Part shown: in pieces, positions 21,022 to 28,096 of the stretch
Layout of the letters: each line of letters opens with the position of its first letter
Numbering within the stretch: the first letter of the stretch is position 1
Source of the DNA: a virus
DNA: 31,531 nt
Direction: 5' to 3' (one strand)
IMG/VR virus record: IMGVR_UViG_3300020027_000026
Span: 1-31,531 of that record
Program-made: the position numbers and the translations under genes
Notes under the pieces: model-generated
Database searches by the model: none
Seen by the model: only the letters and a program-made list of their open reading frames with translations
What the model was told of the DNA's origin: nothing

Positions 21022-21089
21022 GCTTTATTTTAAATTCTTTTTATAACGGCGATTTAACATAAGATGACGTTATGTCGCATTGCCGTGCG

Positions 21090-21173
21090 TTATGTCAACA
21101 TCAGGAGAAAGGTTGCGACCCCGGCCGCGACCGCAAGCCATTCGAGCGGGCACCGCGTTATGTATTTATTCAT
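21090..21173 (-). CDS. 27-aa membrane peptide
   Basis: ATG 21173 lies five bases after the preceding stop; TAA at 21090. MNKYITRCPLEWLAVAAG followed by a hydrophobic end (VATFLLMLT): one short span. No clear ribosome site, so expression would depend on coupling. Confidence 0.5.
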   Translation of the reverse strand: MNKYITRCPLEWLAVAAGVATFLLMLT

Positions 21174-23648: not shown

Positions 23649-23750
23649 AATAGATCGGAACGCAGCGTTAGCGTTAGGAAATGGCGGTATCGAAACCCGC
23701 CACCGATCTAGGGCAGAACGAAGTCGCGCCGTCGCGATTCCCCATTTTTC
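23649..23750 (+). ncRNA. Candidate small RNA A (three-way junction plus terminator)
   Basis: About 100 bases. P1 TAGATCGG (23651-23658) pairs with CCGATCTA (23703-23710). Inside, P2 AACGC (23659-23663) pairs with GCGTT (23671-23675), and P3 TGGCGG (23682-23687) pairs with CCGCCA (23697-23702). P1/P2 and P3/P1 abut with no unpaired base; the only linker is AGGAAA. All helices are perfect. A terminator hairpin follows (23711-23750). No coding frame explains the stretch. No known RNA class recognised; target or ligand unknown. Confidence 0.65.
23711..23750 (+). terminator. Terminator of small RNA A
   Basis: AGTCGCG (23722-23728) pairs with CGCGATT (23733-23739, one G-U), extended by GGG (23711-23713) against CCC (23741-23743), then TTTTT (23745-23749). 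Confidence 0.6.
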
Positions 23751-23768
23751 TAAGGGAACCTGCACGTT

Positions 23769-23873
23769 ATGTTAAATTGTATAACAATTGAAGTTATTAC
23801 ATTATGTCGGGAAATGCAATACGATTGGATTGATGGTTGTTTCCATTCCTGCGATAAATGGATTTATTTGTGA
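23769..23873 (+). CDS. 34-aa Cys-containing peptide (uncertain)
   Basis: ATG 23769 to TGA 23873, with AAGGGA about 12 bases upstream. MLNCITIEVITLCREMQYDW, then CFHSCDKWIYL: four Cys and one His, a possible zinc site. It lies past the terminator of RNA A, where no promoter is evident. Confidence 0.35.
   Translation: MLNCITIEVITLCREMQYDWIDGCFHSCDKWIYL
23775..23789. promoter_or_regulatory. AATTGT-ATA-ACAATT inverted repeat, operator-like
   Basis: Perfect 6-bp arms (23775-23780, 23784-23789) around ATA, about 105 bases before the -35 of the helicase promoter. Confidence 0.4.
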
Positions 23874-23892
23874 CGCAATACCTAAAGAATAG

Positions 23893-23921
23893 TTGCACAA
23901 CGTCGTTATAAGATGTATTCT
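23893..23921 (+). promoter_or_regulatory. Sigma70-like promoter for the helicase
   Basis: TTGCAC (23893-23898), 17-bp spacer containing CGTCGTTATAAG, TATTCT (23916-23921). It fixes the helicase start at ATG 23955, since an in-frame ATG at 23913 would lie before the transcript. Confidence 0.68.
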
Positions 23922-23954
23922 AAATGCACTTACCAACCGAACGGAATTAAAGAA

Positions 23955-25421
23955 ATGAAAGCAGTTGTAAAAGAATGGTCACCGTATCAGAACAACGTGT
24001 TTACATTCGTCACCGATGGCGCTGGCAATTGCATTATCGAAGCAGTCGCAGGCTCAGGCAAGACAACCACGATTGTAGAAGCAATGCGCCGCACCTTCGG
24101 AACGTCAATCTTCCTCGCATTCAATAAGTCCATCCAAGTTGAGCTGTCATCGCGCGGTGTCAACGCCAAGACGTTTCACAGCCTGACGTTCCGCACGGTA
24201 ATGCAGTTCAAAAAGCAGAAGCAAGTCACACAAGACAAGCTGCGTTTAATCGTTGACGCGAACCTTGGCGATGATGACGTGCGAGCCTACGGCGCGTTTA
24301 TCTGCAAGCTGGTCAGCCTCGCGCGTAACAACGGCGTCGGTTGCCTTGTTCCTGACGTTGAATCGGAATGGTATGACTTGATTGACAAGCATGAATTAGA
24401 ACTGCAGACCGAAGAAGCGTCAGTTGAAACCGCTGTAATGTACGCGCGCAAGTTGCTGGCAACGTCGAACGAATCGCCAATGGTTGACTTTGACGACTTG
24501 CTCTATCTAGCGGTGAAAGAGGGTTTGACACTGGAAAAATATGACCATGTTTTCGGCGATGAAATGCAGGACACCAATGCAATACAGCGCGCGATTCTGC
24601 GTAAGATCATGAAGCCAACCAGCCGCTTTTACGGCGTTGGCGATGCAGCGCAGGCGATCTACGGTTTTCGCGGCGCAGACAGCGACAGCCTGAAGCTACT
24701 GGCGACAGAGTTTCAGTGTGTGACGTTGCCCCTGACAGTTTCGTACCGTTGCGCCACATCGATAGTAGAATATGCGCGTCAATTCGGTTCGCCGATTGAA
24801 GCGGCACCAAATGCCCCGGCGGGCGAAGTGATCTCACTCAATACCGAATGGACAACGGCGAACTTTGCGGCGAATGACTTGGTTGTTTGTCGCACCACAA
24901 AGCCGCTTATATCACTGGCGTTCAAACTGTTGAAAGCGCGCGTCCCGGTCCGCATCATGGGCAAGGAAATTGGCGATACACTTATCACGCTGATTGAGCG
25001 CATGAAGGCGAAAGGTATTAGCGCACTCGAAACGAAGCTTGAAGTGTGGGCTAATCGTGAAGCGGAAAAGGCAATTGCCAAAAAGCAGGAAACGAAGGCG
25101 GAAGCGATTCGCGATAAATTCGACGCGATTATGTGCCTAATTGAAGGCTTAGACGAAACCGAGCGCACAATACCTGCACTGTGCGAAATCATCCGCTCGC
25201 TATTCGACAACGGTTACAATCAGGTTGTCTTGGCCACGATCCATAAAGCGAAAGGTTTAGAGTCACCGCGTGTTTACTGGCTGAATAGCAGCAAGTGTCC
25301 CTCGCCGTACGCGCGTCAGGAATGGCAGCTGCAGCAGGAGCGCAATCTCTGCAACGTTGCCGCCACGCGCGCCATGCGAACGCTTGTACTCATTGAGGAA
25401 CCGACTAAGGCGCGATCATGA
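23955..25421 (+). CDS. SF1 DNA helicase, UvrD/Rep-like
   Basis: 488 residues. Motif I AVAGSGKTTT (residues 30-39), motif Ia around FLAFNKSIQ, FHSLTFRT, motif II FGDEMQDTN, motif III YGVGDAAQAIYGFRGA, motif IV region LPLTVSYRC, motif V TIHKAKGLE and motif VI NVAATRAMRTL are all in order and intact. It is shorter than cellular UvrD, with a reduced 2B domain, as in phage and T4 Dda-like enzymes. It would unwind DNA during phage replication or recombination. ATG 23955 is preferred over 23913 because of the promoter. Confidence 0.93.
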   Translation: MKAVVKEWSPYQNNVFTFVTDGAGNCIIEAVAGSGKTTTIVEAMRRTFGTSIFLAFNKSIQVELSSRGVNAKTFHSLTFRTVMQFKKQKQVTQDKLRLIVDANLGDDDVRAYGAFICKLVSLARNNGVGCLVPDVESEWYDLIDKHELELQTEEASVETAVMYARKLLATSNESPMVDFDDLLYLAVKEGLTLEKYDHVFGDEMQDTNAIQRAILRKIMKPTSRFYGVGDAAQAIYGFRGADSDSLKLLATEFQCVTLPLTVSYRCATSIVEYARQFGSPIEAAPNAPAGEVISLNTEWTTANFAANDLVVCRTTKPLISLAFKLLKARVPVRIMGKEIGDTLITLIERMKAKGISALETKLEVWANREAEKAIAKKQETKAEAIRDKFDAIMCLIEGLDETERTIPALCEIIRSLFDNGYNQVVLATIHKAKGLESPRVYWLNSSKCPSPYARQEWQLQQERNLCNVAATRAMRTLVLIEEPTKARS

Positions 25422-25612
25422 AGAAGCAACCCACAAGTAGCGGGCTACCCTGCGCCGCGTGCCCATGGACTAGTAAACACGCCAGCGATAAAGCCGCGTT
25501 GACACCTGAAGTCCGCGCGGCGGCACTCGCCGGCAGTTGGTTCTGTTGTCACGTCAACCTAGGCACCTGCCACGGCGCGGCGCGCTACAGTAAAGCGAAA
25601 CGCGGAACTTGA
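25418..25612 (+). CDS. Cys-rich small protein (DUF6283-like)
   Basis: 64 residues; ATG overlaps the helicase stop (ATGA). PCAACPWTSKHASD, then WFCCHV and GTCHGAARY, a layout I recall as DUF6283 with a probable zinc or metal site. Coupled to the helicase. The -35 of small RNA B overlaps its stop codon. Confidence 0.72.
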   Translation: MKKQPTSSGLPCAACPWTSKHASDKAALTPEVRAAALAGSWFCCHVNLGTCHGAARYSKAKRGT

Positions 25613-25637
25613 CACCTGCTGCGTACGTTGACATAAT
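25609..25637 (+). promoter_or_regulatory. Strong sigma70-like promoter for small RNA B
   Basis: TTGACA (25609-25614, containing the TGA stop of the preceding gene), 17-bp spacer, CATAAT (25632-25637). The expected start is about 25644. Confidence 0.75.
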
Positions 25638-25643
25638 GCAGTT

Positions 25644-25770
25644 AGCTTCTCAGCTATCCGATGGTAACCCCGGTGAACCCGGTCCGCGTGAAACGTTACC
25701 CGATGCAGCCGACGCGCGGGCAGGCATCACGAAACGCCGCTAGGTTAGATCCCCTAAGCGGCGTTTTCTT
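25644..25770 (+). ncRNA. Candidate small RNA B (three hairpins plus terminator)
   Basis: About 125 bases with helices in series: TAGCT (25643-25647) with AGCTA (25652-25656) around TCTC; GGTAAC (25663-25668) with GTTACC (25695-25700) enclosing a CCGG/CCGG helix; GATGC (25702-25706) with GCATC (25724-25728) enclosing GCC/GGC; then a strong terminator. Own consensus promoter. A 35-codon frame crosses it but starts at the -10 element and so would not be in the transcript. No known RNA class recognised. Confidence 0.68.
25732..25770 (+). terminator. Rho-independent terminator
   Basis: AAACGCCGCTAGG (25732-25744) pairs with CCTAAGCGGCGTTT (25753-25766) with one bulged base, followed by TTTTCTT. 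It also closes the rightward helicase operon ahead of the convergent primase gene. Confidence 0.88.
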
Positions 25771-25812
25771 ATGTCACTACGTTATGTCACTACGTTATGT
25801 CACTACGTTATG
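25769..25812. repeat. 13-bp tandem repeat, three copies plus a partial one
   Basis: TTATGTCACTACG at 25769-25781, 25782-25794 and 25795-25807, then TTATG. It fills the gap between the convergent terminator and the end of the primase gene. Confidence 0.9.
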
Positions 25813-25816
25813 ACAT

Positions 25817-28096
25817 TTATAAATTGAAAGTTTTCATATTTGTAATTATGAACGCTTCACCACGAGCGCCGAATTTATTTGCTAAATCAGATGGCGGTAA
25901 TTTCTGAATTTGGCCATTATCTAATAACACTCCCAATGCACGTTTCAAAGCAAAGCTTGCTCCCATTTTATCATTTCTAAAAGCAGCATAAGCAGATGTA
26001 TTTTTTTGTATGTAAACTTTTGGAATGACTTTAGCGTTATGCATTTCTCTATTACCTTTGCCGTCTGCTTGTCCCTCGCATTCGTCCCAAGGTTTCACAA
26101 TCCAATTACGCATAACTTCAACAACTCTTTCGGATTGTTTTATTTCTTCTCTATTCGCTCCAAAAGCGCCAGTATCAAAACGACCTAATAAACTTTTAAC
26201 CTCTGTGTGTATCATATTCGTCGCCCAATGAGCAGAGTCGATTTCAATTATAGGTAAAATGTAATTAAGACCGACTGCCCACAATGAAGCTAACTTCATC
26301 GCCTTCATATAAGCGCGACTCCAAAACTCACGCACAAAACTATTTTCTGAACTGTTAATCTGACTATCGCAAAACGTATTAAATTTGCTGAAAACATTTG
26401 AAGCATCGCTTGTGAATTGCACATCAATTGAATTGTTATAATCATTAAGCTGTAAACTGTGCGCACATAAGGAACCGAATTCGTGTATCAACTTTGTTGA
26501 TGGAATAGCATTGATGTTTTCATTTAAAGCAACTCTTGGCCCTAGGTATTCCATGACAAAGAGACGTGGCACCAATCCTCCTTTAATTGCCATTTCATCT
26601 AATGATTCTAAAAAGGTTTCCGGCGTTGATTCGCCAAGTAAACTAAATGCTGGACTGATTACCGGATCAATTGTTTTTGCACGTTCACTGTAAGCCATCC
26701 AATTCAATACATCGCCGCGCCCGCTTTTATTGTACAAGTCTAAGTAGATTTGCAGTAATAAAGCCTTATGCGGTGCGGCGTCTCGACGTGACATTTCGTG
26801 TAGGGCTATGCCAAATTCTCCCACAATACAAAGAATGCTAGGCGTGTTGACTAATACTTTATTCAACGCTTCTCTAGATGAAATGGTGCCCGGTCCAATG
26901 AATTTTCCAGCGTCCCTAACACCTAATTTAATAGCGGCAGTTATCAACTTATTAATGCCGCTTGCCATCGCTTCTTTACCTGTACCGGTTTTAGCTAGCA
27001 AGATGACGTATTGATTTAAGCCGGTCCCTGATACGTTATAGGCGCGCCCACAGATACCCGCCATAAGACCAATGGCCCCGGCGAGTGCGATCTCAGGCAC
27101 CGGCCTAGGCGCTGCAGCATAAATATATTTCGCGATCTCGCCAAGCAATCCCGGTGGCAATTCTGGCGAGGCTGATGGTGTTTCTATGACAGCTGATAAT
27201 GTTTTCGCTTTCTTCTTTTCAGCAATAACAGCATTGAACTCGTTAATAACGCCATCAATGTCTATTGGTGGCGGCATTCGATCAAAGCATCTAGCGAGCA
27301 TAGGACCAACGTAATCCGATCTATTGGCTTTTTGTCGTTGCCCTAATTTTGATTTCAAAAATAAATTGTGTACTTGCTGTTTGTTCTGACTATAGAACGC
27401 AAGAATATCAATCAATGCATAATCTGCTTCTGACTGCGATTGATAATACTTTTCCCATTCACCTTTGTAATACAAATCATCAAATTTTTCTGCATTGCTT
27501 GCACTCGAAGCAATTTCTAAAACTCTTTCGTCTGTGTATATAGGTGCTTCTAATCCACCATAGAAAGAAATAGCATGTTTGCCTTCGCCTAGTTCTAAAA
27601 ACAATTCGTTTGCTTGTAAGGTGCAATCAACAATCGGCAAGTTGCGAACAATATCGCCGGTAAACGTCATGTATCGATTGTCAGAATAAATTTCAATAAA
27701 CTTGCGCCGCCGTCCACTTGGTATCTTACCTTTAAAAAGAATATGGCAACCTTTACCAGATGGCGAACGTTCGGTATAGCTTTGAAATTTTTCGTATACT
27801 TCTAATTGTTTGCCGAGTGCGGTAGAATCGTCCGTATAGTCAATGTCTATAAATCCATAGGGATTAATTTCTGAAACTATAAAGCCAATACCACTCCATT
27901 TGCCGTTAGCTCTTGTTGCTAGTATTGCTTCGGCAAAGGCACAACCTGACGACACATTAGTAATGTCGCACTTAATGCCGCTTCGGGGATCATATGGAAC
28001 CTTAGTAGGTTTTTTAGCTTCGGTATCTTCATAGCGCCAAACGCACCAACTGTTATAACTCCGCAGTTCAAGCGGAATGTTATCGTATTTATCCAC
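25817..28096 (-). CDS. NrS-1-like primase-polymerase fused to DUF3987-like ATPase
   Basis: 759 residues, GTG 28096 one base after the preceding stop. The N-terminal archaeo-eukaryotic primase-type domain follows the NrS-1 pattern: SYNSWCVWRYE, KVPYDPRSG, GFIDIDYTDD with the D-x-D pair D84/D86, SPSGKGCHILF with H118, then RRRKFIEIYSDNRYMTFTG with E135. Residues about 210-270 match the helix-bundle domain of NrS-1-type polymerases. The second half has Walker A AKTGTGKE (about 368-375) in a DUF3987/helicase-like domain. It probably primes, and perhaps extends, phage DNA near the fork. No other polymerase lies in the window. Confidence 0.82.
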   Translation of the reverse strand: MDKYDNIPLELRSYNSWCVWRYEDTEAKKPTKVPYDPRSGIKCDITNVSSGCAFAEAILATRANGKWSGIGFIVSEINPYGFIDIDYTDDSTALGKQLEVYEKFQSYTERSPSGKGCHILFKGKIPSGRRRKFIEIYSDNRYMTFTGDIVRNLPIVDCTLQANELFLELGEGKHAISFYGGLEAPIYTDERVLEIASSASNAEKFDDLYYKGEWEKYYQSQSEADYALIDILAFYSQNKQQVHNLFLKSKLGQRQKANRSDYVGPMLARCFDRMPPPIDIDGVINEFNAVIAEKKKAKTLSAVIETPSASPELPPGLLGEIAKYIYAAAPRPVPEIALAGAIGLMAGICGRAYNVSGTGLNQYVILLAKTGTGKEAMASGINKLITAAIKLGVRDAGKFIGPGTISSREALNKVLVNTPSILCIVGEFGIALHEMSRRDAAPHKALLLQIYLDLYNKSGRGDVLNWMAYSERAKTIDPVISPAFSLLGESTPETFLESLDEMAIKGGLVPRLFVMEYLGPRVALNENINAIPSTKLIHEFGSLCAHSLQLNDYNNSIDVQFTSDASNVFSKFNTFCDSQINSSENSFVREFWSRAYMKAMKLASLWAVGLNYILPIIEIDSAHWATNMIHTEVKSLLGRFDTGAFGANREEIKQSERVVEVMRNWIVKPWDECEGQADGKGNREMHNAKVIPKVYIQKNTSAYAAFRNDKMGASFALKRALGVLLDNGQIQKLPPSDLANKFGARGEAFIITNMKTFNL

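Follow-up and report, generated by a model that had tools for sequence, protein, structure and literature searches.

A conserved structured element, probably a small noncoding RNA gene, between the helicase operon and primase gene of a phage

The gap between the helicase operon and the convergent primase gene of virus record IMGVR_UViG_3300020027_000026 holds an element that is probably, at about 60%, an independently transcribed, structured phage small noncoding RNA gene. Sequence comparison with two other phages (G001 and G021) shows the element to be noncoding, structured, conserved and syntenic; from there we infer its transcription, the stability of the RNA and its action in trans.

The window, meaning the whole stretch of DNA analysed, is the record at its full length of 31,531 bases. 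It is a phage contig carrying genes for a terminase, a major head protein, a UvrD-family helicase (phrog_1967, E 1e-104) and a DNA primase. The helicase operon lies on the + strand. Features of the locus are as follows.

25418..25612, + strand: Cys-rich ORF of 64 aa, the final protein gene in the helicase operon; TGA stop at 25610-25612
25609..25637, + strand: sigma-70-like promoter, 11/12 match with extended -10; start predicted at about 25644
25609..25743, + strand: 44-aa ORF spanning the element, TTG start and TAG stop; judged to be no protein gene
25644..25768, + strand: predicted small RNA of about 125 nt, delimited by promoter and terminator; matched by the covariance model in G001 and G021
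25643..25656, + strand: HP1, 5′ hairpin UAGCU-UCUC-AGCUA; identical in G001, not clearly kept in G021
25663..25700, + strand: HP2, core hairpin of 38 bases; 33/38 identical in G021, compensatory change in G001
25702..25728, + strand: HP3, hairpin GAUGC/GCAUC plus GCC/GGC; conserved in G001
25731..25767, + strand: intrinsic terminator; stem replaced but pairing kept in G001 and G021
25817..28096, − strand: DNA primase gene, convergent (phrog_3022, E 1.7e-204)

Promoter, hairpins and terminator

The initial annotation placed a TTGACA-17-CATAAT promoter over the stop codon of the upstream gene, and this arrangement is present. The -35 TTGACA (25609-25614) and the -10 CATAAT (25632-25637) are separated by a 17-nt spacer, a TG one base ahead of CATAAT makes an extended -10, and the TGA of the 64-aa ORF falls inside the -35. 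Sites matching at 11/12 or better number five in the whole window, against a mean of 0.9 in locally shuffled sequence. A plain 9-of-12 scan gave 18 sites in the region and 21.4 in shuffled sequence, which is no enrichment, so the promoter taken alone is modest evidence. G001 has the same two hexamers at the same spacing, around a 17-nt spacer much of which has diverged. G021 has a perfect TTGACA at the matching place, 50 nt ahead of HP2 (54 nt in the window), followed by no good -10, so that the -35 alone is recognisable there; a promoter belonging to the element itself is thus supported in two of the three phages, the window and G001. Elsewhere in the window, three more 11/12 sigma-70-like sites (12862, 12985 and 13024) fall within about 160 bp on both strands and are perhaps a divergent promoter region.

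Three serial perfect hairpins followed by a strong terminator had also been described. All three hairpins are found, but perfect pairing is confined to HP1 and the outer HP2 helix. HP2 consists of a 6-bp outer helix (GGUAAC/GUUACC), an inner CCGG/CCGG helix, a pentaloop NGAAC and an 11-nt 3′ bulge. The intrinsic terminator is there after the hairpins, with an 11-bp lower stem and UUUU at its end; a consensus terminator scan did not report it, presumably because the U tract past the stem is short.

Folding z-scores are -2.2 (-2.15) for the window, -3.4 for G001 and -3.2 for G021. The minimum-energy fold of the window sequence (-46.1 kcal/mol) lacks HP2 and HP3, and the serial-hairpin fold, which is the one that the relatives support, is 0.8 kcal/mol worse. 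In G021, HP3 can form with compensatory changes, but a competing fold exists. A three-way-junction variant of HP2, in which CGU-NNA-ACG forms a mini-hairpin, comes out 2-3 kcal/mol less stable. Pairing of the HP2 loop with the bulge in a pseudoknot appeared possible by eye only in G021, and the idea was abandoned.

Homologues and conserved structure

An IMG/VR search with the extended ORF returned one contig, IMGVR_UViG_3300020034_000021 (52.8 kb; G001, L010), while the same search of genome contigs gave no match. This is a syntenic phage, whose helicase is 86% identical to that of the window in amino acids and 80% in DNA, and whose portal protein is 88% identical in amino acids. More records were gathered by helicase- and portal-based scans, and a covariance model (R1) built from the window and G001 RNAs was run over 37 records. 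It found a third copy, at E 1.5e-14, in IMGVR_UViG_3300000956_000068 (33.5 kb; G021, L127), directly downstream of a UvrD helicase with 55% identity to that of the window. The homologues are therefore three in all, two of them close relatives, and each lies at the same site after the UvrD helicase. The upstream neighbour differs by phage: the 64-aa Cys-rich ORF in the window, an 83-aa ORF that extends into the element in G001, and in G021 an 86-aa ORF whose sequence is unlike the others.

No copy was found beyond these three in the searched records and species genomes. A model of HP2 only (R2), run over 53 records, gave no additional true copy. Two matches from an HP2 pattern scan of viral_contigs (L130, L131) lie across long ORFs and were rejected as due to chance, and matches of the model in G019 and G023 were weak, below significance, with that in G019 overlapping an ORF. 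None of 84,980 bacterial and archaeal species genomes matched an extended HP2 pattern, and a second copy of HP2 is absent from the window, from G021 and from the parts of G001 searched unfiltered. Searches of viral_contigs with the 64-aa neighbour protein or the primase gave no relatives. Other ORFs follow the helicase in three helicase relatives (41-43% identity) and in the isolates JG012, VPv62, DoCa3, MMDA13 and MiCath; the RNA model had no significant match in the three relatives, VPv62, DoCa3, MMDA13 or MiCath. It likewise had no match in Xanthomonas phage XAJ2, the nearest isolate by portal protein (61.6%). Rfam 15 gave no family at or above the gathering threshold, with only chance matches at E up to 10, and by ARAGORN the element is not a tRNA or tmRNA.

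Between the window and G001 the body of the RNA has six substitutions, none of which breaks a pair going to G001: one compensatory pair, one change that completes a pair, and three at unpaired positions. The compensatory change, A-U to G-C, sits in the HP2 outer helix. When these changes were placed at random, P was ~3e-4 toward G001 and ~0.02 in reverse, values that are somewhat favourable because the G001 fold served in part to define the structure. The terminator stems add six compensatory pairs. Across the three-sequence alignment 96.5% of cells pair, and 13 of the 38 pairs vary on both sides compared with 4.4 in shuffles; these figures lean toward structure because the alignment was fitted to the model. 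HP2 on its own has one varying helix pair, which is compensated; taken alone, its covariation is not significant. HP2 still ranks first in identity among the blastn segments shared by the window and G021 (33/38). Aligned coding sequence of the same two phages averages 57% identity for helicase and 54% for primase. In G021 the HP2 pentaloop is kept, as is most of the 11-nt bulge. The initial annotation had proposed a covariance-model check at homologous loci, and had named helices not conserved in relatives as evidence against an RNA gene. The model recovers copies in both relatives, and in both the helices are kept, with compensatory changes.

Other parts of the region were compared as well. 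A second RNA-like element, upstream of the helicase (23650-23713, + strand), has an 8-bp closing helix UAGAUCGG/CCGAUCUA with two hairpins inside. It also occurs in G001, where one hairpin has an apparently compensated change, and has no match in G021 or the other records searched. The helicase gene leader (23866-23960) is 95.7% identical to L010:3024-3117 of G001, which has about 296 extra bases with small ORFs between this leader and the helicase start. In a more distant relative, G029 (IMGVR_UViG_3300037439_000020), the helicase-primase gap (L137:15890-16110) holds a different, strongly folded stretch, with a folding z of -4.3, long helices and no Rfam match. The gap may accordingly be a recurrent site for phage RNAs.

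Protein gene, cis-acting RNA or DNA site

The initial annotation saw no plausible gene in the element. The 44-aa ORF does exist, its TTG (25609) overlapping the preceding stop codon and its TAG (25743) inside the terminator stem, and it is the comparison with relatives that rejects it as a protein gene. Since an overlapping start, a short gene and a terminator make a normal phage operon end, we treated as the leading rival the reading that the ORF closes the helicase operon as a small protein gene, with the operon terminator behind it. It was the first reading that we followed. The frame is open in the window, and in G001 it forms the C-terminal part of the 83-aa ORF, about 80% identical in amino acids.

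Third codon positions of the ORF frame, however, are 94% identical to G001 (33 codons from the ATG, binomial P ~8e-7) and 85% identical to G021 (the 13 codons of HP2, P ~6e-4), whereas those of the helicase are 54% and 37% identical, respectively. From the ATG, the ORF differs from G001 by four nonsynonymous and two synonymous codon changes, against 66 and 181 in the helicase. In G021 the frame stays open through the terminator into downstream sequence, and the ORF has no protein family match. A recently exchanged segment would look unusually similar in G001 as well; G021 keeps the core only, with diverged surroundings, which argues against recent exchange as the whole explanation. On the third-position and frame tests the protein reading was rejected, and we now find it scarcely credible; to judge from these comparisons, selection is on the nucleotides, not on a peptide. 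The claim that the RNA itself is the likely product thus gains support from the conserved helices and this nucleotide-level constraint. Where a phage intergenic gap could hold either a small ORF or a hidden sRNA, comparing third codon positions with those of a neighbouring gene offers a way to decide.

The main rival to an independent sRNA is a role in cis, a tentative possibility. The element would then give the helicase operon mRNA a structured 3′ end, or serve as a leader or attenuator, and its promoter would be incidental. Through binding of a protein or of RNA polymerase, HP2 would control termination or the stability of the mRNA. The element does follow the helicase operon in all three phages, and G021 lacks a good -10. 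Two or three small ORFs on the same strand lie past the terminator in G021, so the element could act as 3′ UTR, leader or attenuator. Against this, neither the window nor G001 has a same-strand gene before the convergent primase, and G001 keeps the promoter hexamers around a diverged spacer.

A repeated motif, ACGTTATGTCA, was noted across the window, with 25 occurrences at up to two mismatches and 10.5 expected. It stands in tandem right past the RNA terminator (25769-25815), singly after the second RNA-like element (23764-23774), and in a cluster near 21.07-21.10 kb (21067-21097). It recurs in the early region of G001 (L015); at up to one mismatch it has no occurrence in G021, G029, the G020 pieces or XAJ2. 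The RNA promoter, too, has a related sequence, which lies on the opposite strand and overlaps the -10.

These repeats directly downstream and the similar motif over the -10, together with the location between replication genes, would suit a DNA element, such as a binding site for a protein or a piece of a replication origin, with the hairpins as DNA palindromes. That reading is very unlikely in our view. The repeats are missing from G021 while the HP2 core is kept, which makes a DNA-site role less likely; the hairpins also run from promoter to terminator on one strand, and the unpaired loop and bulge bases are conserved.

Proposed action and known phage RNAs

As an independent small RNA gene, the element would work as follows. 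Host RNA polymerase would use the sigma-70-like promoter where the helicase operon ends, start near 25644 and transcribe about 125 nt before the terminator stops it short of the convergent primase gene. The 5′ end of the RNA would be shielded by HP1, and the 3′ end by the terminator. HP2 would be the conserved working part, a binding surface, and the varying parts scaffold and terminator. The pentaloop and most of the bulge of HP2 stay the same in sequence, whereas the stems around it and the terminator vary; a surface for binding protein or RNA in trans would be expected to behave so. The place between replication genes suggests that the RNA acts early or midway through infection, with replication or gene expression as the process affected. 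In a duplex scan against the start regions of 48 conserved phage genes the best summed z was -4.6, which is not convincing for 48 tests, and no target was assigned.

A more specific proposal, which we hold to be unlikely, is that HP2 is a compact binding module, in which the pentaloop and 11-nt bulge capture a protein or complex of the host or the phage, one serving replication, transcription or defence, for example, and so act as a decoy or scaffold. If true, phage RNA effectors would gain a new class, and related phages would be using the helicase-primase gap to carry structured RNAs that differ from one phage to the next. The element, with comparison pointing to selection on RNA, a defined 38-nt core and no Rfam family, lends itself to searches, expression and pull-down experiments.

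A review (PMC12197685) still counts few phage-encoded sRNAs. We compared the element with three known phage RNAs. The Racr RNA anti-CRISPRs are compact phage noncoding RNAs with a predicted promoter ahead and a conserved hairpin, and they resemble CRISPR repeats (PMC10651486). The element is similarly compact and noncoding, with a conserved hairpin behind a predicted promoter. It appears to differ in that it matched no Rfam CRISPR-repeat family at E up to 10, in that HP2 is closed by an outer helix, and in that the exact HP2 pattern occurs in 0 of 84,980 species genomes. Membership of the Racrs, the tRNAs or an Rfam family is not supported by Rfam, ARAGORN or the species-genome pattern scan.

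OOP RNA of lambdoid phages is short, has its own promoter and adjoins replication genes, and is antisense to cII (PMC12197685). The element shares the short length, the promoter of its own and the nearness to replication genes. Unlike OOP it overlaps no opposing gene, the primase coming to an end at 25817, and thus shows no obvious cis-antisense role.

PreS (LPR1) of lambda is a phage sRNA that acts on host dnaN, a replication gene (PMC12197685). It is likened to the element by description, not by sequence: both are phage-encoded, and the element, too, is found among early and replication genes. In lambda, PreS sits between ea10 and ral, whereas the element lies between helicase and primase in unrelated phages, with no Hfq link or target evident for it. 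We judge the element to be a new RNA family of an already known kind, the phage sRNA.
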